A program made the position numbers and the translations under genes. A stretch of 13,376 nucleotides of DNA from Gallionellaceae bacterium (GTDB lineage Bacteria > Pseudomonadota > Gammaproteobacteria > Burkholderiales > Gallionellaceae): assembly GCA_030646595.1 (NCBI GenBank), contig JAUSKS010000163.1, forward strand, positions 1 through 13,376. Reading direction: 5' to 3'. The notes beneath the pieces are model-generated. The model ran no database searches. It had not been told where the DNA came from and saw only the letters and a program-made list of their open reading frames with translations. Shown here in pieces: positions 1 through 13,376 of this stretch; the first letter of the stretch is position 1, and every line of letters begins with the position of its first letter.

Positions 1-421
1 TGAAAAAGCTTTTAAAGTTGGTGGTAGCTTCAAGACAGATATGTTCGCGGTCAATTTAGTAATTGAAAATACTACCGACACTGTTGCGTTGACTGGCTCA
101 GATACTAAAATCAGAAATATCTATGTGGCTGGCCAATACAACATCAGCAGCAGCGATGCTGTAAAAGTAGCTTTGACCAAGACAGGCGACATGAAAGTGG
201 CAGGAGTTACCAGTGCAAGCTCAGGCGCCAAGCAACTCACTGTGGGTTATGACCATATGATGAGCAAACGCACGACCGTGTATGCTCTGTATACAAAACT
301 GAGCAATAGCACAAATGGCACTTATGAGTTGACTGGCGCAGGTACCAGTGCAGCTGGCCTTGCCTCAACAGCCAATGCAAAACCTTCTGCCTTCTCAGTT
401 GGTATGAAGCACTCGTTCTAA
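1..421 (+). CDS. Outer-membrane porin, C-terminal fragment (5' end outside window)
   Basis: The frame is open from base 2, so the start lies upstream of the window; about 139 residues are visible before the TAA at 419-421. The segment shows the alternating polar/hydrophobic pattern of beta strands (for example KQLTVGYDHMMSKRTTVYALY) and ends in Phe (VGMKHSF). A C-terminal Phe is the usual outer-membrane beta-barrel assembly signal, and this ending is typical of the trimeric general-diffusion porins of Neisseria and Burkholderia type. The product should sit in the outer membrane and pass small solutes. A strong terminator follows, so it is the last gene of its transcript. The porin family call is firm; substrate preference cannot be read from the fragment. 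Confidence 0.85.
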   Translation, partial: EKAFKVGGSFKTDMFAVNLVIENTTDTVALTGSDTKIRNIYVAGQYNISSSDAVKVALTKTGDMKVAGVTSASSGAKQLTVGYDHMMSKRTTVYALYTKLSNSTNGTYELTGAGTSAAGLASTANAKPSAFSVGMKHSF

Positions 422-455
422 ATAACTGCCTCCGTCAGGAGGTGGGTTAGTTGTT

Positions 456-489
456 AAAACGGACACCTTAGGGTGTCCGTTTTTATTTT
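456..489 (+). terminator. Intrinsic terminator of the porin gene
   Basis: A perfect 9-bp stem, ACGGACACC (459-467) with GGTGTCCGT (472-480), closes a TTAG loop and is followed by TTTTATTTT. The A-run before the stem (456-458) extends pairing into the T tract. It lies 35 bp after the porin stop codon and isolates the porin transcript from the toxin-antitoxin promoter. Confidence 0.9.
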
Positions 490-508
490 CACTCAATAAC
501 CGCAACTA

Positions 509-537
509 TTGACGCCTGGTGGGATGATGGTTATAGT
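509..537 (+). promoter_or_regulatory. Sigma-70 promoter of the toxin-antitoxin operon
   Basis: TTGACG (509-514) and TATAGT (532-537) are separated by exactly 17 bp, a close match to the sigma-70 consensus. The antitoxin start codon lies about 35 bp downstream with GAGG at 562-565 as ribosome binding site. ACTAT (505-509) and ATAGT (533-537) form a short dyad across the promoter; it could be part of an antitoxin operator, but five base pairs is weak evidence. Confidence 0.7.
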
Positions 538-572
538 GAGTTACAAATACAACTACATAATGAGGTACTGAA

Positions 573-809
573 ATGACTACAGTGTCACTGCGATTACCAG
601 ACAACTTGCTGAAAGAGGCTGAAAGTGGTGCCAAGGTTCTGCACATTCCGCGCGCTGAATATATCCGACGCGCCATTGCCGCAATGAATCATGAAATGCT
701 GGCGCAAAAACGGCGGGAGCATCTAATAAAGGCTGCACGGCGCGTTAGCGCCGAAAGCATGAGAGTAAATGCGGAGTTTGATGCAATAGAGAGCGATCCC
801 AGTGCTTAA
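573..809 (+). CDS. Ribbon-helix-helix antitoxin of a MazEF/PemIK-like pair
   Basis: A 78-residue protein. Residues 2-40 look like a ribbon-helix-helix DNA-binding domain: a short strand (TTVSLRLP), then two helices with the spacing seen in CopG/MetJ-type repressors (NLLKEAESGAKVLHIPRAEYIRRAIAAM). The charged tail (about 41-78) is where antitoxins of this class usually wrap the toxin. It starts at ATG 573 with GAGG seven bases upstream and its stop overlaps the toxin start by 8 bp, so the two are translationally coupled. By analogy it neutralises the toxin at 802-1143 and represses their shared promoter. The TA role is inferred mainly from the partner gene; the fold call rests on the pattern. 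Confidence 0.8.
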   Translation: MTTVSLRLPDNLLKEAESGAKVLHIPRAEYIRRAIAAMNHEMLAQKRREHLIKAARRVSAESMRVNAEFDAIESDPSA

Positions 810-1143
810 GCAAGGAGAAATCTGGCTCGCCAACCTCAATCCCGGCAAAGGTAGCGAACCCGGCAAAAACCGTCCAGTACTGATCATACAAGGCCCGGCA
901 TTATTGGATGCTGGACACCCTTCAACCCTTATTATCCCTTTAACAACAAAGTTGATCGAGAATGCAGAACCGTTGCGCATTCGGGTTGCTGCACATGGGC
1001 GGCTGAAACACGATTCCGATTTGCTGATTGATCAAATGCGAGCGATTGATAATCGCCGGTTGACTGAAGGTCCGCTCACGCAGTGCGACCAACAATTCAT
1101 GATGCGCGTTTACAGCGCAATTCGTGATATTTTGGAAATGTAA
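802..1143 (+). CDS. MazF/PemK-family endoribonuclease toxin
   Basis: A 113-residue protein beginning at GTG 802, inside the last codons of the antitoxin gene. It carries the MazF/PemK hallmarks: an N-terminal GEIWLANLNPGKGSEPGKNRPVLII block with the conserved Arg-Pro of the active-site loop, the central IIPLTT strand with a catalytic-type Thr, and DLLIDQMRAID. Length and motif order match the family (about 110 residues). Members cut mRNA, often at short sequence motifs, and stop growth when freed from the antitoxin. The cleavage motif cannot be predicted here. The gene ends 9 bp before the 3' end of the convergent trpC, with no terminator visible between them. Confidence 0.9.
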   Translation: MLKQGEIWLANLNPGKGSEPGKNRPVLIIQGPALLDAGHPSTLIIPLTTKLIENAEPLRIRVAAHGRLKHDSDLLIDQMRAIDNRRLTEGPLTQCDQQFMMRVYSAIRDILEM

Positions 1144-1152
1144 CGTTACGCT

Positions 1153-2526
1153 CTAGCAAAGTGCAAACACGCGCGCCAACTCCATCCCCGCATCATCTGC
1201 GCGCATGAAGGCTTCACCCACCAGGAAAGTATGTACCCCGCTAGCGCGCATCCGTTGCACATCTTCTGCCTGCACAATGCCGCTTTCAGTTATCACGATG
1301 CGCTCTGGCGGAATGCGCGGCAGCAAATCCAGCGTAGTTTGCAGGCTGACTTCGAAGGTGCGCAAGTTGCGGTTGTTGATGCCGATGAGCGGGGTTTGCA
1401 ATTGCAGGGCGATTTGCAGTTCGTCTGCATCATGCACTTCTACTAATACCGCCATGCCGAGACTGTGCGCTAACGATTCCAGTTCATGTAGGGAAGCGAG
1501 ATTGAATTGTATGTCTTCTTCCTTACCCTCTCCCCTAGCCCCGGCCCCTCGCTTCGCTCTCCCCAAGGGAGAGGGGAAAACAACATGGCTGCGGCTCAAC
1601 TCCCCTCCCCCTTGGGGGGAGGGGTTGGGGGAGAGGGTGTTGTATATATGTTCCAGAACGGCATCGAATTCACCCAGCACTTCGTTGTTCCAGAATCTCA
1701 ACACGCGATAACCGTGCTCGGCAAACCAAGCGTCGCGCTGAGTATCGCGGTGAGATTCTGCGTGTTGCCCACCATCAATTTCGATGACCAGGCGAGCATC
1801 ATGGCATATGAAATCGGCGATATAGTTTCCCAGCGGTTCTTGGCGACGAAATTTCCAGCCTGCAAATCGCTGGGCGCGCAGTTCACCCCATAATTTTTGT
1901 TCCGCATCCGTCATGTTTTTTCGAAGTTCGCGGGCGAAGGGCAAGTGTTCTTGGGTGTATAGGTAGCGACCTGTTTTTTCTGCGGGGCGGGGGGTAGGCA
2001 CCCTCTCCCTAACCCTCTCCCCGAGGGAGAGGGGATAGCTACCCTCTCCCTTGGGGAGAGGGGTTGGGGGAGAGGGTAGTTTGAACGCTGCGACAATCAG
2101 CAATATGCAGTCTGCTCCCATCGCCCGTGCTTGATAAATTTGGTAAGCATCCACCATGAAGTCCTTGCGCAGGACGGGCAGGGTGCAGGCGGCGCGGGCG
2201 TGTTGTAAATAGTCGGCACTGCCCTGGAAAAATTGTTCATCAGTTAGCACTGACAAGCATGCTGCGCCATGCTGGGCATAGCTGGCTGCAATTTCTGCGG
2301 GACGGAAATCAGCGCGCAGCACGCCTTTGCTGGGGCTGGCCTTTTTGATTTCGGCGATGACGGCGGGCTGGTCTGCCGCAATTTTATTGCGGATGGCTGC
2401 GACGAAATCACGCACGGGCATCGCCTGTTCCGCCTCGGCACGTATCTGCGCCAGCGGCTTGATAGCCTGCGCAGCCGCTATTTCTTGCGCTTTGACGGTT
2501 AGAATTTTTTGCAGAATGTCGGACAT
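1153..2526 (-). CDS. trpC: Indole-3-glycerol phosphate synthase carrying an in-frame inserted DUF559 nuclease-like domain
   Basis: TrpC closes carboxyphenylamino-deoxyribulose phosphate to indole-3-glycerol phosphate in tryptophan synthesis. The host enzyme is complete in two parts, residues 1-148 and 342-457, together 264 residues, which is the normal family length. Conserved active-site segments are present: EIKKASPSKG (Glu59, Lys61), RKDF (Lys121), VEVH (Glu363), INNRNL (Asn385) and ITESG (Glu414, Ser415). Residues 149-341 are foreign: low-complexity PSPPTPLPKGEG-like ends around a DUF559 domain (about 187-298), with PD-(D/E)XK-like residues Asp238, Glu249, Asp251 and GGQH. The insert lies between strand beta4 (CILLIVAA) and helix alpha4 (SLHELESLAHSLG), on the catalytic face of the (beta/alpha)8 barrel. 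No frameshift or stop is present. trpC stands alone here, divergent from proA, rather than in a trpEGDC operon. Whether the fusion is active is unknown. Confidence 0.93.
   Translation of the reverse strand: MSDILQKILTVKAQEIAAAQAIKPLAQIRAEAEQAMPVRDFVAAIRNKIAADQPAVIAEIKKASPSKGVLRADFRPAEIAASYAQHGAACLSVLTDEQFFQGSADYLQHARAACTLPVLRKDFMVDAYQIYQARAMGADCILLIVAAFKLPSPPTPLPKGEGSYPLSLGERVRERVPTPRPAEKTGRYLYTQEHLPFARELRKNMTDAEQKLWGELRAQRFAGWKFRRQEPLGNYIADFICHDARLVIEIDGGQHAESHRDTQRDAWFAEHGYRVLRFWNNEVLGEFDAVLEHIYNTLSPNPSPQGGGELSRSHVVFPSPLGRAKRGAGARGEGKEEDIQFNLASLHELESLAHSLGMAVLVEVHDADELQIALQLQTPLIGINNRNLRTFEVSLQTTLDLLPRIPPERIVITESGIVQAEDVQRMRASGVHTFLVGEAFMRADDAGMELARVFALC
1524..1641. repeat. Inverted pair of CCCTCTCCC-family palindromes (left flank of DUF559 element)
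   Basis: Copy A (1524-1576, plus orientation) begins TACCCTCTCCCCTAGCCCC and ends CCCCAAGGGAGAGGGG. Copy B (about 1600-1641, opposite orientation) ends GGGGTTGGGGGAGAGGGT. They face each other across about 25 bp. Read in the trpC frame they encode low-complexity Pro/Ser/Gly/Arg stretches (NPSPQGGGELS and FPSPLGRAKRGAGARGEG). Copy A carries an extra segment (GGCCCCTCGCTTCG) compared with the other copies. Confidence 0.85.
2000..2079. repeat. Inverted pair of CCCTCTCCC-family palindromes (right flank of DUF559 element)
   Basis: Copy C (2000-2035) reads ACCCTCTCCCTAACCC followed by CTCTCCCCGAGGGAGAGGGG. Copy D (2040-2078, opposite orientation) runs from TACCCTCTCCCTTGGGG to TTGGGGGAGAGGGTA. The arrangement mirrors the pair at 1524-1641, so the nuclease part is bracketed by two head-to-head pairs. 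In the trpC frame they encode PSPPTPLPKGEG and YPLSLGERVRERV. Confidence 0.85.
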
Positions 2527-2547
2527 AAGGGGACTCGTTTACACAAG

Positions 2548-2586
2548 GCGCGCATTTTAACACCCCGCTTGCGGTAAAATGCGCGC
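2548..2586. promoter_or_regulatory. 12-bp dyad with symmetric TAAAAT boxes between trpC and proA
   Basis: GCGCGCATTTTA (2548-2559) and TAAAATGCGCGC (2575-2586) are perfect inverted repeats with a 15-bp spacer, centred in the 105-bp gap between the divergent genes. Each arm offers a TAAAAT that could serve as a -10 box, reading right towards proA and left towards trpC. No convincing -35 is visible at the proper distance for either. It may be a shared divergent promoter, an operator or an mRNA hairpin; the dyad itself is certain, its role is not. Confidence 0.5.
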
Positions 2587-2631
2587 TTACGCGTCAGTGC
2601 TTCGTTTTTGATCGCGCAATAGGAGCTTGCC

Positions 2632-3891
2632 ATGAAAGACATTAAAACCTATATGCAACAAATCGGGCAGCAAGCCCGCGATGCTTCGCGCTTGATGGCG
2701 CTGGCCAACACTGCCGTGAAAAATACGGCGTTGGAAAATATTGCCGCCGCCATTTTGCATAACCGCGCGCAACTCCTCGCGGCCAATGCCAAAGATGTCG
2801 CTGCTGCACGCAATAACGAACTGGATGAGGCGCAGATAGACCGGCTGACCCTGACCGAAAAAAGCCTGCGCAGCATGGCCGAAGGTCTGTTGCAAATTGC
2901 TACCTTGCCCGACCTCATTGGCGAAATAACGGAATTGAAATACCGTCCTTCCGGTATCCAGGTTGGCAAGATGCGTGTGCCATTGGGGGTGATCGGCATC
3001 ATTTATGAATCGCGCCCCAATGTCACGGCAGATGCTGCCGGGCTATGTCTGAAATCGGGCAATGCCGCCATTTTGCGCGGTGGCTCGGAGGCCATACATT
3101 CCAATCAGGCGATTGCCGCCTGTGTGCATCAAGGGCTGCGCGAGGCAGGCTTGCCAGAAACCGCAGTGCAAGTTATCGCCACGACTGACCGCGCTGCGGT
3201 AGGCGAGCTGATTACCATGCCGGAGTATGTGGATGTGATCGTGCCACGCGGCGGCAAGAGTTTGATTGCGCGCATTGCGAGTGAGGCCAAGGTGCCAGTC
3301 ATCAAGCATCTGGACGGCATTTGCCATGTATATATAGATGACGAAGCCGATCTGGACAAGGCTATCCGTATCGCGGATAACGCCAAGACCCAGCGCTATG
3401 GTGTATGCAACACCATGGAAACTCTGCTGGTGGCACAAGGCGTGGCTGCTGCCGTGCTGCCCAAACTATGCCAGATTTATCTGGACAAGGGTGTGGAACT
3501 GCGCGGCGATGAAGCGGCATGCAAACTGGTCAAGCAGATGAATCCGGCAACCGAGAAAGACTGGCGCACCGAATATCTGGCGCCCATTTTAAGTGTGCGC
3601 GTGGTGGCTGATTTAAATGAAGCCATTGCTCATATTAATACGTACAGTTCGCAACATACCGACAGCATCGTGACCGAAAATCACACACGGGCCATGCGCT
3701 TTTTGCGCGAGGTGGATTCCAGTTCGGTGATGGTAAATGCTTCGACTCGCTTCGCCGATGGCTTTGAATATGGGCTGGGTGCGGAGATCGGTATTTCCAC
3801 AGACAAAATACATGCGCGCGGCCCGGTGGGGCTGGAAGGATTGACCTCGCAGAAATTTATTGTGCTGGGTAGCGGGCAGATCAGAACTTAA
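2632..3891 (+). CDS. proA: Gamma-glutamyl phosphate reductase (glutamate-5-semialdehyde dehydrogenase)
   Basis: ProA reduces gamma-glutamyl phosphate to glutamate-5-semialdehyde with NADPH, the second step of proline synthesis in the cytoplasm. The protein has 419 residues, the usual length. Visible landmarks are the N-terminal [19 protein letters not shown] block, the nucleotide-binding and core segments [12 protein letters not shown] and [11 protein letters not shown], the catalytic cysteine in [10 protein letters not shown] (Cys259), and the C-terminal [15 protein letters not shown] and [13 protein letters not shown] motifs. The ATG at 2632 is supported by AGGAG at 2621-2625. proB is not adjacent. 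lpdA follows 67 bp downstream on the same strand, separated by a double hairpin. Nothing in the reading frame is damaged. Confidence 0.96.
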
Positions 3892-3893
3892 GC

Positions 3894-3941
3894 AGGCGCG
3901 CGGACGTCTCGTCCGCAATGCGGGCAGGATGCCCGCGATCC
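3894..3941. repeat. REP-like double hairpin between proA and lpdA
   Basis: Two perfect 7-bp hairpins stand side by side: GCGGACG-tct-CGTCCGC (3900-3916) and GCGGGCA-gga-TGCCCGC (3920-3936). The segment fills most of the 67-bp gap. It could slow polymerase, stabilise the upstream mRNA end or act as a weak terminator, but no T-tract follows either hairpin. I recognise this kind of GC-rich paired hairpin as a dispersed intergenic repeat in proteobacteria; its genome copy number cannot be seen from one copy. Confidence 0.7.
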
Positions 3942-3958
3942 ATTTCAAGAAAGAAAAA

Positions 3959-5737
3959 ATGAGCACAATTATTTCCGTTACCGTGCCGGATCTCGGCGAT
4001 TTTAAAAATATTCCCATCATCGAAGTGCTGGTTAAAGCAGGCGACACAGTCACAGCCGAGCAGCCGCTGATCACGCTGGAAACCGACAAGGCCACCGTGG
4101 ATGTACCTGCGCCTGCCGCTGGTGTGGTGCAGGAACTCAAAGTTAAAGTGGGCGACAAGGTCAGTCAGGGTAGTGTGATTTTGATGCTGGATAGCGAGGA
4201 TCGAGGATCGGGGATCGAGGAACGAGTAAAGCCGGTTGTCGTTGAGGATAAAGGGACAAAGGAAAAATCTGCTGCACCCAACCCTCAATCCTCAATCCCC
4301 GATCCTCGATCCTTCCCCAAAGGGGACCTCCATGCCGAAGTCGTCGTTCTCGGTGCCGGACCTGGTGGCTACACCGCTGCTTTTCGCGCGGCTGATTTGG
4401 GCAAGCAGGTGATATTGATCGAACGCTATGCCAGTCTGGGCGGCGTGTGTCTGAATGTAGGTTGCATTCCTTCCAAAGCCCTGCTGCATGTGGCCAAGGT
4501 CATTAGCGAAGCAGATGACGTGGCGCAGCATGGTGTGACTTTCAGCAAACCTAAAATTGATCTGGACAAAATTCGCAACTGGAAAGAAAGCGTCATTGCC
4601 AAGCTCACGGGTGGATTGACGGTGCTGGCCAAACAGCGCAAGGTGCAAGTGGTGTATGGCGTGGCAAAATTTACTTCGCCCCACAGTCTGGTAGTGGAAA
4701 CCAAAGAGGGCAGTAAGACTATCAGTTTTGATCACGCCATCATCGCGGCAGGCTCCAGCGTGGCGCGTATTCCTGGTTTTCCCTACGATGATCCGCGTCT
4801 GCTGGATTCCACCAGCGCACTGCAATTGCAAGATGTGCCCAAACGCTTGCTGATTATCGGCGGCGGCATCATTGGTCTGGAAATGGCGACGGTATATGAC
4901 GCACTCGGCTCTAAAATTTCCGTGGTGGAATTGGCGGATGGATTGATTCCCGGCGCGGATCGCGACCTCGTGCGCCCCTTGCACAAGCGCATACAAAAAC
5001 GCTATGAGGCTATTTATCTAAAAACAAAAGTCAGCCAAATTGAAGCACTAAAGGAAGGATTGCAAGTGACCTTTGTCGGCGACAATGCACCCGCGCCACA
5101 ATTATTTGATCGTGTACTGCTGGCCGTAGGTCGCCGTCCCAATGGTCGCGACATCGGCGCAGATGCCGCAGGGGTAACGGTCAACGAACGCGGCTTCATC
5201 CCGGTGGATAAACAGCAGCGCAGCAACGTGCAGCACATTTACGCCATCGGCGATATTGTCGGCGATCCCATGCTGGCACATAAGGCCACGCATGAAGGCA
5301 AAGTGGCAGCAGAAGTGATTGCCGGACACAAGGCCAGCTTCGATGCGCTGACCATTCCTTCCGTCGCTTACACTGACCCTGAAATTTCCTGGATGGGCTT
5401 GACCGAAACCCAAGCCAAAGCGCAGAACATCCCCTACGAAAAAGCCAGCTTCCCCTGGGCAGCCAGTGGCCGCGCGTTATCTATGGCGCGCGAGGAAGGA
5501 CTCAGCAAGCTGCTGTATGACCCACAGACCAAGCGCATCCTGGGGGCAGGCATAGTGGGCAGCAACGCTGGCGAACTCATCGCTGAAACCGTGCTGGCGC
5601 TGGAAATGGGCGCAGATATGGAAGATATTGGATTGACCATACACCCGCATCCCACGCTCTCGGAAACGGTAGCCTTTGCGGCAGAAATTGCTGAGGGGAA
5701 TATTACCGATTTATATATGCCGAAGAAAAAATCTTAA
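3959..5737 (+). CDS. lpdA: Dihydrolipoamide dehydrogenase (E3) with N-terminal lipoyl domain
   Basis: E3 reoxidises dihydrolipoamide with FAD and NAD+ for the 2-oxoacid dehydrogenase complexes, and as the L protein of the glycine cleavage system. From ATG 3959 it has 592 residues. Residues 3-77 form a biotinyl/lipoyl domain with attachment Lys44 in ETDKATVD. Residues 80-119 are a repeat-encoded linker. The E3 part follows: FAD-binding LGAGPGGYTAA, redox disulfide Cys164/Cys169 in GGVCLNVGCIPSK, NAD site IIGGGIIGLEMA, second FAD site YAIGDIVG, and the C-terminal His-Glu pair in HPHPTLSE. A lipoyl domain fused to E3 is usual for the pyruvate dehydrogenase E3 of betaproteobacteria, but aceE and aceF are not in view. 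The frame is open up to 3860, but that would run through the double hairpin and overlap proA; homology starts at MSTIISVTVPDLG. Confidence 0.95.
   Translation: MSTIISVTVPDLGDFKNIPIIEVLVKAGDTVTAEQPLITLETDKATVDVPAPAAGVVQELKVKVGDKVSQGSVILMLDSEDRGSGIEERVKPVVVEDKGTKEKSAAPNPQSSIPDPRSFPKGDLHAEVVVLGAGPGGYTAAFRAADLGKQVILIERYASLGGVCLNVGCIPSKALLHVAKVISEADDVAQHGVTFSKPKIDLDKIRNWKESVIAKLTGGLTVLAKQRKVQVVYGVAKFTSPHSLVVETKEGSKTISFDHAIIAAGSSVARIPGFPYDDPRLLDSTSALQLQDVPKRLLIIGGGIIGLEMATVYDALGSKISVVELADGLIPGADRDLVRPLHKRIQKRYEAIYLKTKVSQIEALKEGLQVTFVGDNAPAPQLFDRVLLAVGRRPNGRDIGADAAGVTVNERGFIPVDKQQRSNVQHIYAIGDIVGDPMLAHKATHEGKVAAEVIAGHKASFDALTIPSVAYTDPEISWMGLTETQAKAQNIPYEKASFPWAASGRALSMAREEGLSKLLYDPQTKRILGAGIVGSNAGELIAETVLALEMGADMEDIGLTIHPHPTLSETVAFAAEIAEGNITDLYMPKKKS
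4197..4313. repeat. GGATCGAGG-type inverted repeat forming the in-frame linker of lpdA
   Basis: The left arm (4197-4221) and right arm (4289-4313) are 25-bp inverted copies with one mismatch; each starts or ends as AGGATCGAGG / CCTCGATCCT. The whole unit is 117 bp, exactly 39 codons, and encodes the hinge between the lipoyl and E3 domains, starting EDRGSGIEER and ending SSIPDPRSF. Related lpdA genes usually have an Ala/Pro-rich linker here. A second member of the family lies at 10437-10520. Confidence 0.85.
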
Positions 5738-5749
5738 GCCGTCATTCCG

Positions 5750-6166
5750 GTGTTCACCCAATTTCTCACCAACGATCTCAGCCTGTGCGGATTATTTATT
5801 TCCAGCTTTCTTGCGGCCACCTTATTACCTGGCGGCTCGGAAATCATTTTAATCGGAGTGCTTAAACTTCATCCTGAATTATCCTGGCCTGCTCTGTTGC
5901 TGGGTACATTGGGAAATACCCTGGGTGGTATGGTGACCTTGGTCATGGGTCGGATGCTGCCGCCTACGCAGCAACTCAAGCATGTGGAAAAAGTACGGCG
6001 CTATGGTACGCCCTTGCTGTTGCTGGCCTGGGTTCCCCTTATGGGTGATGCGCTATGTCTGGTAGCGGGTTGGTTACGCCTGAATCCCTGGTACGCCATG
6101 CTGTTTATGGCGCTGGGAAAATTTATGCGCTATGCGCTGATAGTGGTGGCGACAACATCAATATAG
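5750..6166 (+). CDS. YqaA/DedA-like small integral membrane protein
   Basis: A 138-residue hydrophobic protein with about four membrane segments (roughly 10-42, 47-67, 86-108 and 113-136). The motif FLAATLLPGGSEIIL near the N-terminus, the glycine-rich GTLGNTLGGMV in the second segment and the late WYAMLFMALGKFMRYALI match the YqaA branch of the DedA/VTT-type membrane proteins. Its transport or lipid role is not established for this branch. It starts at GTG 5750, 12 bp after lpdA, without a clear ribosome binding site; no closer ATG fits, since the next Met is deep in the second helix. It is probably co-transcribed with lpdA and converges on the YebC-family gene 18 bp away. Confidence 0.75.
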   Translation: MFTQFLTNDLSLCGLFISSFLAATLLPGGSEIILIGVLKLHPELSWPALLLGTLGNTLGGMVTLVMGRMLPPTQQLKHVEKVRRYGTPLLLLAWVPLMGDALCLVAGWLRLNPWYAMLFMALGKFMRYALIVVATTSI

Positions 6167-6184
6167 TCAGCTACATCATGGCCC

Positions 6185-6886
6185 TTAACCCGCCAGCCCC
6201 ACATAAACATTTTGCACATCATCATCTGCATCTATGGCTTCCAGGAACGCTTCCACCTCTTCACGCTCAGCCTCGTTCAACGTAACTGGATTTTTGGGAC
6301 GATAACCTAACTGGGCGGACTGCACGGTAAACCCGTGTGCGGGCAAGGCGCGGCATACCGCGTCCAGATCGGTGGCATCAGTAAGAAATAGCGTGGCACC
6401 ATTTTCAGCGGGCTCTAAATCCTGAGCGCCAGCCTCAATAGCTGCCAGCTCTGCATCTGCATCTTTAGCAGTTGGGGTCGCTTCTATCATGCCCTGATAA
6501 TCAAAATCCCATGCAACCGAACCTGATGCACCCAGCTGACCCTTGCGGAATAGTACGCGTATGTTGGACAGCGTTCGGTTAATATTGTCCGTCAGGCATT
6601 CCACAATCACGGGTACGCGGTGCGGCGCAAATCCCTCGTAGGTAAGCCGCTCCAGACTGACCCCTTCATCCAGCAAGCCTGCGCCTTTTTTGATGGCGCG
6701 TTCCAGCGTTTCACGCGGCATGGAAGCTTTTTTGGCTTGCTCCACCACCAAACGCAAACGCGGGTTCATGTCTGGATCGGCACCCGCGCGCGCGGCGACC
6801 ATGATTTCCTTGGACAGCTTGCCGAATATTCTGCCCTTTTCATTAGCTGCAATTTCTTTATGTCTGGCTTTCCATTGTGCGCCCAT
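6185..6886 (-). CDS. YebC/PmpR (TACO1) family protein, YeeN-type
   Basis: A 233-residue protein of the YebC family, annotated either as transcriptional regulators or, from recent work on family members, as ribosome-associated factors that help translation of difficult stretches. Landmarks are the start [21 protein letters not shown], the first-domain segment [42 protein letters not shown], and [13 protein letters not shown]. The MGAQWK opening and GAQDLEP region resemble the YeeN-type paralogue rather than canonical YebC, which begins MAGHSKW. It starts at ATG 6886 with a purine-rich AAAGAGAG upstream. It follows the M17 peptidase gene by 64 bp on the same strand, with no terminator seen between, so they may share a transcript. 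Regulator versus translation factor is unresolved. Confidence 0.88.
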
Positions 6887-6950
6887 ATCTGCTCTCTTTA
6901 CTCTTTTGCTTTACTAAAAACTTGGGGGGATTTCATCACAGCTAATACAT

Positions 6951-8393
6951 TTACTTAGCCTGCACCATCCGCAATCCCCAGCCTACACCGAACCCCGTCA
7001 CATCACTCGCTACACTACCCAACCCGCCTTCGCAACGGCTGGCTGACAAATCCACATGCAGCCACGGCGTATCATGCTCGACAAAGCGTTTCAGGAAGCG
7101 CGCAGCGAGGATGTGATCAGCTTCGCCATCCAGCGTACATTGTTTGATGTCGGCCACTTTGGAATCGAGCGCGGGTTCGTAATCTTCGTCCATGGGAAAG
7201 GCACACAGCCGCTCGCCGCTTTGCTGCCCCGCTTGCACCGCCTGTTGCAACAAGGCATCGCGGTTGCCCAATACACCACTGTAGCGCGCGCCCAGCGCGA
7301 CATGCATGCTGCCGGTGAGCGTGGCGAAATCAATCAGCAGATTGGGTTTGGCACGCGAGGCAAGAGTGAGCGTATCGGCCAGCACCATGCGCCCTTCGGC
7401 ATCGGTGTGCATGATTTCGATGGTGGTGCCGTTTAACGCTTTGACGATGTCGTTTTGTTTGTAGGCTTTGGGGCCGATGTGGTTTTGCGCAATGGCCAGC
7501 CAGCAGTCTATATTGACGGCCAGCTTTTGTTGCGTAGCAGCCAGCAGAATACCGAGCGCGACCGCAGAGCCGTTCATGTCTTCATGCATGCCATGCATAT
7601 AGCGCGCGGGCTTGAGATTGTGGCCGCCGGTATCGAAACAAATACCCTTGCCCACCAGCGCCACCGTTTTCTTGGCTTTGGGATGCGTATAGTGCAGATG
7701 CACAATCGCAGCATCCTCCTCTGCGCTACCCTGGGCAACGGCCACGAAAGCACCCGCCCCCATTTTGCGCAGTTTTTTCAAATCAAATTCCTCATGTTTC
7801 CATTTGTTGATCTGCGCCAGTTTTTTTACGCGGCTGCGGTATAACCCTGGTGTCAGCTCATTTGGCGGCAACACAGTCAATTCGCGGCATAAAAAATTTC
7901 CTTCCGCCTGCGCCTTGAGCGGCGCAAAAATTTTCTGGTCAGCGAAACCAAACAGTTCAATTTTTTGCAGCGGTTTGCGCTCGTCTTTTTTCTTGTGCAG
8001 CGGCAGTGGTGTGCCATTTACCCATGCGCTGTATACGGCCAGTGTAGCCGCTTGTTGACGTTGTGTCGCATCGCCCAACACCACTATCGCAATACGCTGC
8101 GGTTTTTCATCCAGCAACAATTGCAGCGCCTTGCGCACCTGCACTTGCTGGGCGAAAGTCTCTTTGGAAAAATCCAGCATGGCCCACACGATCAGCGCAC
8201 CATCGGCATTGGCAGATACAGCCGTGGTAGCCAGTTCGTCCGGCTTCAGCTTGCGTCGCGCTAACACGGCCTTGAGTAAATCGGCATGCAACAGGTCTTG
8301 CGGTAGCGTTTTGTTTTTGGGCAATAGCACCAGCAGATGTTGCTGGGGTAAGCGCTTGGGCACAGCCTGCGCCAGGGTAAGTTGAGCTAGCAT
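6951..8393 (-). CDS. M17 family leucyl aminopeptidase
   Basis: A 480-residue cytosolic metallo-aminopeptidase that removes N-terminal residues from peptides. The C-terminal catalytic domain keeps the whole M17 metal site: Lys249 and Asp254 in VGKGICFDTGG, Asp272 in HEDMNGSA, and Asp331 and Glu333 in HTDAEGRMVLADTL. Lys261 (NLKP) and Arg335 fit the catalytic Lys and the bicarbonate-binding Arg. The signature octapeptide varies from the usual NTDAEGRL. Residues 1-160 are the divergent N-terminal domain, typical of the PepA/PepB superfamily. ATG 8393 is preceded by AAGGA with good spacing. The gene is divergent from the glycine cleavage operon and lies upstream of the YebC-family gene. pepA is possible, but the sequence is distant enough that I leave the symbol empty. 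Confidence 0.92.
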   Translation of the reverse strand: MLAQLTLAQAVPKRLPQQHLLVLLPKNKTLPQDLLHADLLKAVLARRKLKPDELATTAVSANADGALIVWAMLDFSKETFAQQVQVRKALQLLLDEKPQRIAIVVLGDATQRQQAATLAVYSAWVNGTPLPLHKKKDERKPLQKIELFGFADQKIFAPLKAQAEGNFLCRELTVLPPNELTPGLYRSRVKKLAQINKWKHEEFDLKKLRKMGAGAFVAVAQGSAEEDAAIVHLHYTHPKAKKTVALVGKGICFDTGGHNLKPARYMHGMHEDMNGSAVALGILLAATQQKLAVNIDCWLAIAQNHIGPKAYKQNDIVKALNGTTIEIMHTDAEGRMVLADTLTLASRAKPNLLIDFATLTGSMHVALGARYSGVLGNRDALLQQAVQAGQQSGERLCAFPMDEDYEPALDSKVADIKQCTLDGEADHILAARFLKRFVEHDTPWLHVDLSASRCEGGLGSVASDVTGFGVGWGLRMVQAK

Positions 8394-8461
8394 GAGGAAT
8401 CCTTGGTAATGAATCCCCGCATTATCCCGAAAAAACCCAGACTACATGGAGCAAATTGCTA

Positions 8462-8491
8462 TTGCCCCGCCACCCCCATTTCCGGTATAGT
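8462..8491 (+). promoter_or_regulatory. Probable promoter of the gcvTHP operon
   Basis: TTGCCC (8462-8467) and TATAGT (8486-8491), 18 bp apart, precede the riboswitch by about 15 bp, the position expected for a leader that begins just before aptamer I. The -35 box is a partial match, so this is probable rather than certain. The segment from 8394 to here otherwise holds only the upstream region of the divergent aminopeptidase gene. Confidence 0.55.
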
Positions 8492-8508
8492 TCGGGCTGC
8501 CGTTTAGA

Positions 8509-8745
8509 CCTACTGGGAGAGTGTGCAGCGTAGCAATGCCGCACCGCCGAAGGCGCAACACCCGTAACCGCTCAGGCTCATGAACCGCTAGGACAGGCAA
8601 ATCTGGAGAGTGCCAATTACATGAAACTCGCGTAGCGAGTCTTTGTCCCCCTCGCCCATTTATGGGAGAGGGCTGGGGAGAGGGTAATCAGCCACCGAAG
8701 GGGCACACAACGCGAGTTGTAATCTCTCAGGTATCAAGAACAGAT
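8509..8745 (+). ncRNA. Tandem glycine riboswitch controlling gcvTHP
   Basis: Two glycine aptamers lie in tandem before gcvT. Aptamer I (about 8509-8592) has CTGGGAGAG, the core ACCGCCGAAGGCGCAA and CGCTCAGG, closed by CCTA/TAGG. Aptamer II (about 8601-8745) has CTGGAGAG, the core CACCGAAGGGGCA, the small hairpin ACAAC-GCGA-GTTGT and ATCTCTCAGG, with P1 formed by ATCTG (8601-8605) and CAGAT (8741-8745). Known members sense glycine and usually turn on glycine cleavage genes. The P3 arm of aptamer II is greatly enlarged by an extra hairpin ACTCGC-gta-GCGAGT (8626-8640) and a repeat copy (8647-8685). A terminator follows P1 almost directly, so control of transcription ending is likely. Confidence 0.92.
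8647..8685 (-). repeat. CCCTCTCCC-family repeat copy inside riboswitch aptamer II
   Basis: On the minus strand this reads ACCCTCTCCCCAGCCC followed by CTCTCCCATAAATGGGCGAGGGG, the same family as the four copies in trpC. It contains its own hairpin, CCCTCGCCC with GGGAGAGGG, with one mismatch. Removing it joins TGT (8644-8646) to AAT (8686-8688), giving TGTAAT, which pairs with ATTACA at 8616-8621. So the repeat sits in the outer part of the P3 arm, away from the conserved core. Confidence 0.8.
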
Positions 8746-8747
8746 GG

Positions 8748-8780
8748 GGCGAAGCAGAATAAGTCTGCTTCGCCTTTTTT
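8748..8780 (+). terminator. Intrinsic terminator in the gcvT leader (riboswitch expression platform)
   Basis: A perfect 11-bp stem, GGCGAAGCAGA (8748-8758) with TCTGCTTCGCC (8764-8774), closes a 5-nt loop and is followed by six T. It ends 17 bp before the gcvT start codon and begins two bases after the 3' strand of P1 of aptamer II. This placement fits transcriptional control of gcvTHP by glycine, but no overlapping antiterminator is obvious. Confidence 0.9.
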
Positions 8781-8797
8781 CATTCCGAAAGAAAAAT

Positions 8798-9886
8798 ATG
8801 ACCTTAAAACAAACGCCGCTCAATGCAACTCACCGCGCCATGGGTGCCAAGATGGTTGATTTTGGCGGCTGGGATATGCCGGTTAATTATGGCTCGCAGA
8901 TAGACGAGCATCATCAGGTACGCCGTGATGCCGGCATGTTCGACGTGTCGCATATGCGCGTGGTGGATATACACGGCGAGGGGGTGCGCGCTTTCCTGCG
9001 TTATCTCTTGGCCAATAACGTAGACAAGTTGCAATTCAGCGGCAAGGCGCTGTATTCCTGCATGCTGCGCCCGCATGGTGGTGTGATTGATGACCTGATT
9101 GTGTATTTCATGAGCGAGCAGTGGTTTCGCATCGTGGTTAACGCGGGCACCGCAGATAAAGATATTACCTGGATGCGGGAGCAAGCTGTCGCTCATGCAG
9201 CCCAGTTAAAAATTACCTCGCGTGATGACCTGGCCATGGTGGCTGTACAAGGCCCCCATGCACAGGCAAAAGTATGGCAGGTATTGCCGCAGACCAAAGC
9301 GGCCACCGAAAGTCTGCAACCCTTTCAGGCGGCAGAGTGTGGCGATTATTTTGTAGCGCGCACTGGCTATACCGGCGAGGATGGGTTTGAAATCATCTTG
9401 CCTGCCACCGAGGTTACCGCTTTCTGGAATGCTCTGCACAAAGTCGGCGTAGCGCCCATCGGCCTGGGCGCGCGCGATACTTTGCGTTTGGAGGCGGGCA
9501 TGAATTTATATGGGCAAGACATGGATGAAACCATCAATCCGCTGGAAGCGGGGCTGGCCTGGACGGTAGACTTGAAGAGCGAGCGCGATTTCATCGGCAA
9601 GGCCGCACTGCTGGCCAACCCTGCTACGCGCAAGATGGTGGGATTGGTGCTGCTGGATCGCGGGGTATTGCGCGGCCATCAGCAAGTGCATAGTGCGCAA
9701 GGTGTGGGCGAAATTACCAGCGGCAGTTTTTCGCCGACGCTGGAAAAATCCATCGCGCTGGCGCGCATGCCCAAGGAAGTGCAGATTGGTGATACGGTAC
9801 AAGTCGCAATTCGCGATAAAATGCTGGCCGCGAAAGTTGTTAAATATCCGTTCGCGCGCAATGGCAAAGGTTTAGGGCACCTCTAA
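8798..9886 (+). CDS. gcvT: Aminomethyltransferase, glycine cleavage T protein
   Basis: GcvT takes the aminomethyl group from lipoylated H protein and passes its carbon to tetrahydrofolate, releasing ammonia. The protein has 363 residues, the usual length. Motifs are the N-terminal [27 protein letters not shown], the folate and catalytic block [10 protein letters not shown] (Asp98/Asp99), [34 protein letters not shown], and the C-terminal [23 protein letters not shown] 8798 is chosen because homology starts there and the in-frame ATG at 8744 lies in the riboswitch/terminator. A weak GAAAG precedes it. The last three codons and the stop (GHL-stop) come from a 142-bp inserted element; without it the protein would end KGLN. 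It leads the glycine-controlled operon with gcvH and gcvP. Confidence 0.95.
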
Positions 9887-10016
9887 AAACCCAAGTTTCT
9901 AAGCCAGACAAGGCGCGAGCAAAAAATTGCGACGCAGCATATACACAATATGTAAGGAGTAATTTTTTATGAGCAACGCAGTATGGCGACGAAAATTGGA
10001 ATTTTTAGAGGTACCC
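9875..10016. mobile_element. 142-bp MITE-like element between gcvT and gcvH
   Basis: Terminal inverted repeats GGGCACCTCTAAAAA (9875-9889) and TTTTTAGAGGTACCC (10002-10016) match at 14 of 15 positions and are flanked by TTTA direct repeats (9871-9874 and 10017-10020), a clean target duplication. Inside are AAAAAATT/AATTTTTT (9921-9928, 9961-9968) and a CATAT-acaca-ATATG hairpin (9938-9952), so the element can fold on itself. No transposase is encoded. Removing it with one TTTA gives gcvT ending KGLN-TAA, then ten bases containing AGGGAGA, then the gcvH ATG: a normal operon junction. Confidence 0.88.
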
Positions 10017-10040
10017 TTTAAATTAATCAGGGAGACATGA
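9969..10040 (+). CDS. Possible 23-codon leader peptide created by the MITE-like element, overlapping the gcvH start
   Basis: AAGGAG (9954-9959) lies nine bases before ATG 9969. The frame reads [23 protein letters not shown] and stops at TGA 10038-10040, so its stop and the gcvH start share ATGA (10037-10040). The ribosome binding site and the first 16 codons lie in the element; the rest comes from the gcvT-gcvH junction. The layout would suit translational coupling, but no conservation can be judged from one copy, and chance is possible. Confidence 0.3.
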
Positions 10041-10432
10041 TCAGCAACACACCCAGCAAATTGAAAAACACCGCCTCCCACGAATGGGTCAAAGCTGAAG
10101 CCGATGGCACGGTCAGCGTGGGCATTACGCAGCATGCGCAGGAATTATTGGGCGACATGGTGTTCGTGGAATGCCCTGCCGTCGGCCGCAAGCTGAAAGC
10201 AGGCGAAGAATGCGCGGTAGTGGAATCCGTTAAAGCCGCATCCGATGTGTATGCGCCGATTGCTGGTGTCGTTACGGCGGCCAATGCAGCGCTGGATAAC
10301 ACACCAGAAAACATCAACAGCGACCCTTACGGCTCATGGATGTTCAAGCTCAAGCCCGATAATGCAGCCGATGTGAACAGCTTGATGGATGCCACAGCTT
10401 ATCAAGCGCATGTAGATAGCGAAGCACATTAA
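10037..10432 (+). CDS. gcvH: Glycine cleavage system H protein
   Basis: GcvH is the small lipoylated carrier that shuttles the aminomethyl group between P, T and L proteins in the cytoplasm. It has 131 residues, the standard size. The lipoyl attachment site is Lys66 in [14 protein letters not shown], preceded by [21 protein letters not shown] and [10 protein letters not shown] and followed by [23 protein letters not shown] and the GSWMFKLK strand, all typical. The start at 10037 has AGGGAGA just upstream, native to the operon. The gene is the second of gcvTHP; a palindromic repeat begins four bases after its stop codon. Confidence 0.96.
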
Positions 10433-10436
10433 CAAC

Positions 10437-10520
10437 AGGATCGGGGATTGAGGATCGAGGATAGAGGGAAACCCGCTGTCCCGCTTTTATCTCAATCCTC
10501 GATCCTCACTCCTCGATCCT
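10437..10520. repeat. GGATCGAGG-type inverted repeat between gcvH and gcvP
   Basis: The left arm (10437-10467) and right arm (10490-10520) are about 31-bp inverted copies with three or four mismatches, starting AGGATCGGGG and ending CCTCGATCCT, around a 22-nt centre. It belongs to the same family as the lpdA linker repeat. It fills nearly the whole 92-bp gap, starting four bases after gcvH and ending four bases before the gcvP ATG, so transcribed RNA would form a long stable hairpin there. Confidence 0.85.
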
Positions 10521-10524
10521 AAAA

Positions 10525-13376
10525 ATGATTACTACTGATAAATTTGTAAACCGTCACAATGGCCCGCGTGAGCAGGATGTCGTTGCCATGCTGAAAAAAA
10601 TTGGTGTCAGCTCGCTGGATGAGTTAATAGACCAAACCATACCTGCCGCGATTCGTTTGAAAAAACCGTTGAATTTGCCGAGCGCCATGTCTGAGTATCA
10701 ATATCATCAGCATTTGCGCGCGGTGGGGGCAAAAAATAAAGTATTCAAAACCTATATTGGTTTGGGTTATTACAACACCATCGTGCCGCCCGTTAATCAG
10801 CGCAACATTCTGGAAAATCCTGGTTGGTATACGGCTTACACGCCTTATCAGGCGGAGATTGCGCAAGGCCGCCTGGAAGCGCTGCTGAATTTTCAGACCA
10901 TGATTATGGATTTGACCGGCATGGAAATCGCCAATGCTTCTTTGCTGGATGAGGCTACTGCTGCCGCCGAAGCGATGGCTATGTTGTTCAGCAATCGTAC
11001 CCGCGAGGCCATTGAAAAAGGCGCGAATAAATTTTTCGTTTCCCACGAATGTTATCCGCAAACTATAGACTTATTGAAAACCCGTTCTGAGCCTATGGGG
11101 ATAGAGCTGGTGATAGGCGATTTCAAAACAGCCACTTTGGAGAGCAATATTTTTGGCGCTTTGCTGCAATATCCCAGCGCAGATGGTCAGGTACACGACT
11201 ACGCCGATTTTGTGAAAAAAGCCAAAGCTAACGGTAGTTCTATTGCCGTGGCGGCGGATATTTTAAGCCTGGTTTTATTAACGCCCCCCGGCGAATGGGG
11301 CGCAGATGTGGTGGTGGGCAATACGCAACGCTTTGGTGTGCCCATGGGCTACGGCGGGCCGCATGCTGCTTTTTTTGCCTGCCATGATGAATTCAAGCGT
11401 TCCATGCCGGGCCGCATCATCGGTGTATCGGTGGATGCGAATGGTAATCCGGCATTGCGCATGGCGTTGCAAACGCGCGAGCAACATATCCGGCGCGATA
11501 AAGCCACTTCCAATATTTGTACCGCACAAGCGTTACTGGCCATCATGGCCAGCATGTACGCGGTCTATCACGGGCCGCAAGGGCTGAAGGGCATTGCGCA
11601 ACAAGTGCATTTGTCTGCTATCGCACTGGCTGCGGAATTGAAAAAGCTGGGCTACGCAGTAACAGAAGGCATTTATTTTGACACCCTGAAAATCACTGGT
11701 GTTGATCCTGCCAAAATAAAGTCACTGGCAGAAGCGGCGCAAATTAATTTCCGTTACATCGAGCAAGCAATCACCATCTCGCTGGATCAGACTACCGCTG
11801 CCGACGATCTGAATGCGATTATTGCCGTGTTCGCAAAAGCAATAGGCAAAGAGGCGGGAAAAATTTCTGAAGCACAAATTTTCAGTCAAAAATCCTTAAT
11901 CAAGAATCGCTCCTCTGCCATTCTGCAACATCCGGTATTTAATCTTTACCATTCCGAATCAGAAATGATGCGCTATATAAAGCGTCTGGAAAATAAGGAT
12001 TTGTCGCTGACGCATTCCATGATTTCCCTGGGCTCTTGCACCATGAAATTGAATGCGGCGTCCGAGCTGATGCCGATTACCTGGCCGGAATTTGCCCACC
12101 TCCATCCCTTTGTGCCGGTTGAGCAAGCAGCGGGTTATCATGAAATTATCGCCAGCCTGGATCAGGCCTTGAGCGAAATTACCGGCTTCGCCAAAATGAG
12201 CTTTCAGCCCAACAGCGGCGCTCAGGGCGAATATGCCGGGCTGCTGGTGATCCAGGCTTATCATCAATCACGCGGTGATGCGCATCGCAATGTGGCATTG
12301 ATTCCGACCTCGGCGCATGGCACCAACCCGGCCAGCGCAGCGATGTGCGGTTTGAAAATCGTGCTGGTGAAGTGCGACAAGAAAGGCAATATTGATATAG
12401 ATGATTTGCGCGAGAAAGCAGTACAGCACAAGGATGATTTGGCTTGCCTGATGGTGACTTACCCCAGCACACACGGTGTGTATGAAGAAAGCATCATGGA
12501 AATCACCCGCATCATTCATGAAAATGGTGGCCAGGTTTATATGGATGGGGCCAACATGAATGCGCAAGTGGGCTTGACCAGCCCTGGCAATATCGGCGCA
12601 GATGTGTGCCATTTGAACTTGCACAAAACCTTTGCCATTCCTCACGGTGGTGGCGGGCCGGGCATGGGACCGATAGGCGTGGCCAAACATCTGGCACCAT
12701 TTTTACCTAGCCACCCGGTTATCAAAACGGGGGGTGAAAAAGGAATACATGCTGTGTCTGCCGCGCCATATGGCAGCGCATTAATTTTGCTGGTGTCTTA
12801 CGGCTACATAAAAATGCTGGGCGGGGAAGGGGTGACGGAAGCCACTCGATTGGCGATTCTGAATGCCAACTACATTAAAGAATCGCTGAAAGATTTTTAC
12901 CCGACTTTATACAGCGGCAAAAATGGCCGTTGCGCCCATGAAATGATATTGGCTTGTGCCGAGTTCAAACGTGACGCGGGCGTGGAAGTGGGCGATATTG
13001 CCAAACGCTTGATGGATTATGGCTATCATGCCCCCACTGTTTCCTTCCCGGTGGCGGACACCTTGATGATAGAGCCAACCGAAAGTGAATCGAAAGAAGA
13101 GTTGGATAAATTCTGCTCGGCCATGATTGCCATCCGCCACGAAATTAATGAGATCATTTCCGGGGTAGCAGACAAACAGGATAATGTGCTCAAAAATGCG
13201 CCGCATACGGCCCAGTCTGTTATTGTGGACACTTGGTCACATGGCTATTCCCGCGAAAAAGCGGTTTATCCCTTAAAATGGGTAAAGGCCAGTAAATTCT
13301 GGCCCAGCGTGGGCCGCGTGGATAATGTGCGGGGCGACAAGAACTTGGTGTGTGCTTGCCCGCCCATTGAATCCTA
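10525..13376 (+). CDS. gcvP: Glycine dehydrogenase (decarboxylating), glycine cleavage P protein; 3' end cut by window edge
   Basis: GcvP is the PLP enzyme that decarboxylates glycine and loads the aminomethyl group onto lipoyl-GcvH. The reading frame is open without a stop for 950 codons from ATG 10525 to the window edge, where the next codon begins TA. The family has about 950-960 residues in its single-chain form, so at most a few residues are missing. Both homologous halves are present: the N-terminal half with [33 protein letters not shown] and [16 protein letters not shown]; the C-terminal half with [34 protein letters not shown], and the PLP-binding Lys701 in [18 protein letters not shown]. 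It ends [19 protein letters not shown]. No Shine-Dalgarno sequence is visible; the ATG sits four bases after a long palindromic repeat. Confidence 0.96.

Follow-up and report, generated by a model that had tools for sequence, protein, structure and literature searches.

A DUF559 nuclease domain between BoxC palindromes inside trpC of a Gallionellaceae bacterium, and a probable palindrome-nuclease element

Results

The trpC gene and its insert

The window analyzed here, that is the whole stretch of 13,376 nucleotides from a Gallionellaceae bacterium (GenBank assembly GCA_030646595.1, contig JAUSKS010000163.1, positions 1 to 13,376, forward strand), carries a trpC gene, coding for indole-3-glycerol phosphate synthase (IGPS), that holds within its reading frame a nuclease domain of the DUF559 family bracketed by palindromic repeats (Table 1). 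In the list of open reading frames (ORFs) of the window, a single frame of 457 residues spans trpC plus insert. Its Pfam match to IGPS is split into two stretches with DUF559 in between, the latter scoring 137.1 bits against a cut-off of 20.6. Residues D54, E65, D67, Q70 and H71 of the domain (the D/E..DxxQH residues) are invariant in a first alignment, and the active-site columns are conserved in 120–121 of the 121 aligned domains from a 120-row protein listing.

A sequence-only reading of this DNA had proposed an in-frame block of 193 codons whose excision gives an ungapped TrpC, and both claims hold. The inserted bases number 579, and trpC without them aligns gap-free to its relatives (LLIVAAF-NL versus LLIAAAL-SL at the junction). 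Eight residues that we take to be those of the TrpC active site are intact in 18/18 inserted TrpCs aligned, and LLIVAAF is presumably barrel strand 4. In the predicted structure the TrpC barrel still matches IGPS despite the insert, and the linkers around DUF559 are predicted to be disordered. Pfam and NCBIfam scans of the trpC ORF returned IGPS/TrpC, DUF559 and a related restriction endonuclease model, and no splicing domains.

Table 1. Features of the inserted trpC gene and BoxC copies in the window
Feature	Position	Strand	Evidence and remarks
trpC (indole-3-glycerol phosphate synthase) ORF with in-frame insert, 457 aa	1153..2526	-	ORF list; Pfam/NCBIfam; PDB sequence matches; predicted structure
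TrpC N-terminal part, residues 1-148, last residues LLIVAAF	2083..2526	-	Pfam; alignment
TrpC C-terminal part and stop codon, starting at residue 342, NLASLHELES	1153..1503	-	Pfam; alignment
Inserted block, 579 bp / 193 codons, edges +/- a few bases	1504..2082	-	Alignment with empty relatives
DUF559 (PF04480) PD-(D/E)XK-type nuclease domain, residues 196-298	1633..1941	-	Pfam E 2.6e-40; active-site pattern
BoxC/PIT/TMECO copy, outer, beside TrpC N-terminal part	2042..2076	+	nhmmer model, 26.2 bits
BoxC copy, inner, G-rich foot towards DUF559	2001..2033	-	nhmmer model, 28.6 bits
BoxC copy, inner, foot towards DUF559, overlapping 3' end of DUF559 coding part	1603..1637	+	24.1 bits
BoxC copy, outer, degenerate	1525..1575	-	Core 1557-1575, 13.1 bits; arm 1525-1548
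Unmatched bases between BoxC and trpC	1507..1523	-	Edge comparison; no target duplication supported
Additional BoxC copy, outside ORFs called as genes	8649..8684	+	nhmmer model, 28.2 bits; ORF list

The palindromes are BoxC

On the evidence of pattern and model, the palindromes of the window belong to the BoxC/PIT/TMECO triplex motif, for which we used the pattern CCCTCNCCC N3-6 GGGNGAGGG N3 GGGNGAGGG with one stem mismatch allowed. Four copies score 24–29 bits with 0–2 mismatches to the two-arm pattern; some have loops a base or two off the strict pattern, and the copy at 1525-1575 is degenerate (13 bits). BoxC-like matches exceed chance (5 versus a mean of 0.00 in 200 shuffles). The sequence-only reading had seen the repeats and missed their identity. 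Its palindromic pairs on both sides of DUF559 were recovered, with a degenerate outer left copy, and the 16–17 unmatched bases that it flagged at the left edge are real (about 17).

As in the published description of the motif (PMC4666352, available text), the repeats of the window consist of a C-rich arm, a loop, a G-rich arm, a short loop and a G-rich foot. Holder et al. 2015 counted 3610 BoxC copies in 262 proteobacterial genomes, and the available text of that paper assigns no function to BoxC, finds no mobility gene nearby and leaves its origin open (PMC4666352). No word starting with 'nuclease', 'endonuclease' or 'DUF559' occurs in its main text. Inverted BoxC pairs also occur in E. coli (PMC4666352, available text). 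Unlike the BoxC described there, which in the same text is always intergenic in MG1655, the copies studied here are bound to DUF559 and lie inside coding frames.

BoxC DNA is GC-rich, mostly open in frame, and encodes linkers rich in Pro, Gly and Ser. One reading frame is open in 149/149 copies and the others in 116–136, with 86% predicted from base composition. Being open in most frames, BoxC DNA may help the element to live inside genes as a loop domain.

Age, site and distribution of the trpC insert

A protein search with the insert region, of which the best 120 of 450 matches were tabulated, gave at least 19 TrpC proteins with DUF559 among the 120 matches listed. The insert sits at the same place in all 17 that are full length, preceded by IV(A/S/G)AF, and two fragments show the right edge only. 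The window is no single case, 17 other full-length TrpCs carrying the insert at the same site. No close copy of the insert core was found in another genome at E 1e-44 among 158 family genomes and 399 order-sample genomes; in a class sample of 369 genomes, at E 1e-38, three other genomes have DUF559, in short frames of 152–174 aa. Across these family, order and class samples the only trpC insert is that of the window.

That the fusion arose by misassembly or misbinning in a fragmented metagenome bin is scarcely credible. The source bin is 83.85% complete in 333 contigs, and the window TrpC groups outside the main same-genus clade of the TrpC tree, but the fusion recurs at this very site in the 17 other full-length proteins; two named genomes also have it, one of which encodes one of these proteins.

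The trees used here are quick and carry SH-aLRT support only, and the DUF559 tree has few columns. In a tree of 168 TrpCs computed without the junction columns (best 120 of 8000 scored in the TrpC protein search), 8 changes are required to explain the 19 inserted rows, and well supported branches force at least 5 of these. Divergence of TrpC is matched by that of its resident DUF559 (rho 0.86 for 153 pairs; mean identity 79.1% and 78.5%), and the TrpC-resident DUF559s form one clade with support 87. P0122, the nearest empty relative of the window TrpC (87% identical), has a short in-frame extra stretch at the exact site, which is most simply taken as a remnant of the insert. Taken together, these comparisons indicate that the trpC insert is old, confined to a single site and patchy among relatives. 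A fresh insertion in trpC was ruled out by co-divergence and same-site occurrence.

We also compared the two states within one clade of six inserted and four empty TrpCs. Similarity within and between states is alike (93.0, 93.1 and 92.7%), and 3 of the 56 variable columns separate the states, all at the insertion site (p 0.002, with the 8 near columns chosen by us). Such site-only differences fit an exchange of full and empty alleles by recombination with short flanks, co-adaptation being the alternative.

These observations bear on site-specific homing, in which a trpC-specific DUF559 lineage would recognize trpC itself, cut empty alleles and be copied in, with no intein or intron. The single trpC site, patchy among close relatives with its forced changes, the one resident clade, the fixed full/empty differences at the insertion site only, and the constant IV(A/S/G)AF all speak for it. 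The same-site patchy nuclease in its target gene and the site-local difference recall homing endonucleases, Vsr-like ones included. We nevertheless regard this explanation as rather unlikely: the same architecture occurs in unrelated genes and between genes, the equal pace of nuclease and TrpC is also compatible with a single old insertion followed by losses or by replacement of alleles, and the likely remnant in P0122 speaks for loss there. Unlike homing endonucleases, the insert has no intein or intron, is bounded by BoxC and has counterparts in many unrelated hosts.

The 5-bp TTGAA target duplication claimed by the sequence-only reading did not survive. TTGAA/TTCAA, found on both sides in the window, is at 5 nucleotides the longest word common to both insert edges, 38% of 5000 shuffles reach that length, and no such duplication exists at the inserted trpC of locus L046 (Thiobacillus sp. 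UBA6205) or L047 (a Burkholderiales bin). Because of these results, the insertion is not shown as a transposition with 5-bp duplication, and, the insert being old as well, recent transposition is very improbable and was dropped.

BoxC-like peptides that lack DUF559 are inserted at a second site in TrpC, ahead of RIVVTESG, both in inserted proteins (P0006, P0007, P0009, P0016, P0017, P0018) and in empty ones (P0143, P0150, P0169, P0200, P0227).

BoxC and DUF559 are neighbors

We examined 69 DUF559 loci, of which 2 come from the source genome besides trpC, 3 from the sampled genomes and 64 from named genomes. A hand-written regular expression for orientation was too strict (34/69 loci without a match), and an nhmmer model of BoxC, seeded in part by seven of these loci and the window, was used instead. 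This model gave 180 matches within 400 bp of DUF559 versus 32 elsewhere, that is 3.26 versus 0.077 per kb or a 42-fold density. In a model-free count, the motif flanks DUF559 on both sides in 49/65 loci versus 0.14% of 9241 control positions.

The G-rich feet face DUF559 (BoxC> DUF559 <BoxC) in 44 of the 53 loci with matches on both sides (44/69 overall; 24/33 after removal of 22 loci of the Bradyrhizobium set), and in the 44 inward loci the downstream BoxC starts a median of 10 bp past the domain. Among in-frame cassettes, the inward layout is found in the window, L046, L047, L110, L113, L114, L115 and L116, and on one side only in L111. Under a strict pattern the source genome has 17 repeat clusters in 33 stretches, 2 of them inside long frames. 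A literature search over titles and the starts of abstracts, subscription papers lying outside it and CCCTCTCCC and GGGAGAGGGG being among the queries, returned no report tying DUF559 to BoxC.

Two Rhizobiales loci, L088 and L062, have a DUF559 gene directly before another gene, presumably pheT, and in L088 the two form one open frame. In L089, DUF559 interrupts a Bacteroidetes TsaD, and the flanks resemble BoxC only weakly.

Shared presence across genomes and in E. coli

The association was extended to 249 Pseudomonadota genomes, in which repeats were counted with one pattern only (GGGAGAGGG N2-6 GGGNGAGGG) and five or more copies defined a repeat-rich genome. A strong DUF559 match was found in 62 genomes and 45 were repeat-rich; DUF559 is present in 35/45 BoxC-rich genomes versus 27/204 others, leaving 10 with the repeat only and 177 with neither. 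The association holds within 19 families (Cochran-Mantel-Haenszel p 1e-6). One family that has no DUF559 genome entered this comparison with 16 negatives in place of 17, which leaves the outcome unchanged. In these comparisons, DUF559 genes and BoxC palindromes go together, both as neighbors with a preferred orientation and in shared presence across genomes.

The YcjD protein of E. coli is a DUF559 protein. YcjD/DUF559 has been placed in the PD-(D/E)XK family, with a YcjD profile detecting Vsr (PMC1189080); the domain of the window is of the same family, and the available text of that paper gives no repeat association. A BoxC remnant overlaps the 3' end of ycjD, giving YcjD a repeat-like SPSP at its C-terminus; 167 bp further on lies a complete TMECO. 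ycjD was matched in 3365/5426 E. coli genomes. Of 60 records listed, one of 18 kb was dropped; the 37 with ycjD have 13–28 other BoxC places (median 18) and the 22 chromosomes without it 1–16 (median 3.5).

Two BoxC pairs of E. coli vary in presence between strains, hrpB-mrcB being covered to 80% in 3521/5375 matching genomes and fepB-entC in 2752/5375. In the pair the feet point inward, as they do around DUF559, and a short spacer occupies the position that the nuclease would have. In the five strains aligned at these sites, inspection by eye reveals no target duplication and shows differences at some of the flanking bases. A clean empty site of ycjD was rejected, an efflux operon occupying that place in 8/8 strains without ycjD. 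In the 8 loci compared, the fabI-sapF interval holds either ycjD or an RND efflux operon, by lineage; the available part of the EefABC paper likewise reports that efflux operon and ycjD share the interval (PMC12817139).

Cassettes in other host genes

DUF559 cassettes bracketed by repeats inside other conserved genes, as anticipated from the window alone, were found in MetG, HrpA, AsnB and others. The unit is found both on its own and, in frame, within many enzymes. Among the 120 proteins listed, DUF559 is flanked on each side by 60 or more residues in 63 (17 TrpCs included), and repeat-like peptides lie on both sides in 58/63; in these same proteins, 30% of control windows contain such peptides. 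A Pfam scan for host domains covered twenty proteins. In TsaD, QueC, a class III aminotransferase, AsnB and an MmeI-type methylase, the host domain is divided into two stretches. MetG, PriA and HrpA have domains to either side of DUF559. In HsdS, HsdM, GalK, RecO and a DUF1156 methylase, the threshold used gave a domain on a single side, and in TadA, SdhE, TilS and a radical-SAM protein DUF559 is fused at an end. The HrpA cassette occurs in at least 2 family genomes and in P0084.

The MetG cassette sits at one linker in 8 of the 148 family genomes with a match, from four genera; other MetGs have BoxC-like insertions or none at that linker (by eye). The resident nuclease is strongly constrained, the ratio of nonsynonymous to synonymous changes (dN/dS) being 0.09 in the informative pair L174/L176. 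Judged from the aligned sequences, cassette copies in trpC and metG have been kept with the active-site pattern, and some relatives have them while others lack them at the one site. In a quick tree of few columns, resident DUF559s cluster by host gene (18 changes for 17 groups, against a minimum of 16), so that entry into genes would be rare and residence long.

Constraint on the MetG resident, conservation of the active-site columns and residence in the restriction-modification genes HsdS, HsdM and MmeI-like would also suit a domesticated fusion, with DUF559 kept for a service to the host cell such as defense against foreign DNA and TrpC, MetG and HrpA mere carriers. We consider this quite unlikely; a selfish element accounts better for the patchy presence among relatives and for the palindromes on either side.

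BoxC also occurs alone, in frame, in PurL (L121, 850-3315) and TadA (L143, 1225-1884) of the source genome, both named by sequence reading. These copies, together with those at the second TrpC site and the MetG linker (by eye), favor a passenger model, in which BoxC would spread by other means (slippage at triplex DNA during replication or repair) and DUF559, caught between copies, would be carried along. The available text of Holder 2015 links BoxC to instability without any enzyme (PMC4666352), and a strong DUF559 match is missing from 10 repeat-rich genomes. Yet DUF559 recurs with the inward orientation and the 10-bp median spacing in loci of several phyla, the repeats track it across genomes and E. 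coli records, and the MetG-resident nuclease is under strong constraint; we hold the passenger model to be unlikely.

Discussion

The block in the window is best explained as a resident copy of a BoxC> DUF559 <BoxC unit to which a further BoxC is added at either end. The unit itself is probably a palindrome-nuclease element of REP-RAYT-like kind, with a PD-(D/E)XK enzyme and BoxC ends, tolerated as an inserted domain and spread or lost by local allele conversion. We infer that DUF559 may act on BoxC and that conversion may move the unit. More specifically, DUF559 would recognize BoxC and cut there, and repair after the cut would copy BoxC pairs or the whole unit to new places and into empty alleles, this copying being gene conversion with short flanks. 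Disordered linkers encoded by BoxC would let copies in surface loops be tolerated as an added domain, and TrpC would fold around it and remain active. The earlier proposal of a repeat-bounded nuclease element moving by its nuclease and repeats thus retains its cassette and likely actors, and loses fresh transposition with a 5-bp duplication.

Several observations weigh against such an element. At the level of genomes, 27 with DUF559 have fewer than five copies of the one pattern searched, and two of the 10 repeat-rich genomes without a strong match have weak ones. A backward-pattern control, which is no clean null because BoxC is nearly mirror-symmetric, also matched in some repeat-rich genomes and was not subtracted. 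The inward layout is missing from L089 (TsaD), from L112 and from one (C120) of the other two DUF559 copies of the source genome (L041/L117; the other, C272, is inward). The DUF559 residing in each host gene is nearly one clade, so new gene insertions are rare, and divergence of MetG nuclease and host is uncorrelated (rho 0.20, 6/8 cassettes). Except in one frame, BoxC is no more open than base composition predicts. In E. coli, O157:H7 records without ycjD still show 12 BoxC places, lineage structure confounds the comparison of strains with and without ycjD, and ycjD shows no clear purifying selection (dN/dS 0.28–1.98, with few changes and uninformative). A target duplication, the short direct repeat at both edges of miniature inverted-repeat transposable elements and insertion sequences, was seen neither at trpC in three loci nor at two E. 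coli BoxC sites.

RAYTs are HUH single-strand transposases with GTAG-type REPs. The BoxC-DUF559 unit resembles REPINs and RAYT (TnpA-REP) in its inverted palindrome pairs and in one dedicated nuclease family bracketed by repeats (PMC3116915, PMC8266576, available text), the bracketing being inward in 44/53 loci. Unlike RAYT systems, it combines a PD-(D/E)XK domain with BoxC and resides in frame; the domain bracketed by repeats in the Pfam-scanned cassette ORFs is DUF559 and not HUH, and no HUH (Y1) transposase was noticed beside the repeats among the window ORFs, inspected by eye only. Rickettsia palindromic elements, compared by description only, likewise place palindromic DNA in frame in many genes; they are about 150 bp long with a conserved peptide, and the available text mentions no nuclease domain (PMC10969869).

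A wider reading is possible and is offered tentatively: BoxC plus DUF559 could form a new class of mobile element, with triplex-forming palindromes as ends, cut-and-convert copying without a transposase, a role as source of proteobacterial BoxC (in E. coli via YcjD) and a drive-like domain in essential enzymes such as MetG and in enzymes such as TrpC and TsaD. BoxC/PIT/TMECO had neither source nor function in the available text of Holder 2015 (PMC4666352), and its tie to one nuclease family is proposed here. With this tie, the origin of BoxC becomes testable in E. coli K-12 through a single gene. The element would also offer whole domains and disordered linkers a way of entering important enzymes at internal positions, and would be a partnership of nuclease and palindrome distinct from HUH/RAYT systems.

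Other features of the window

An ORF at 802-1143 (+) resembles, by its sequence pattern, a MazF/PemK-type protein. A second, unrelated palindromic family (GGATCGAGGATCGGGG...) lies at 4195-4313 and 10437-10520. One copy is in frame in the linker of an ORF that we take to be lipoyl-dihydrolipoamide dehydrogenase, and another follows a different ORF, presumably gcvH-like; this family may be another in-frame palindromic element.
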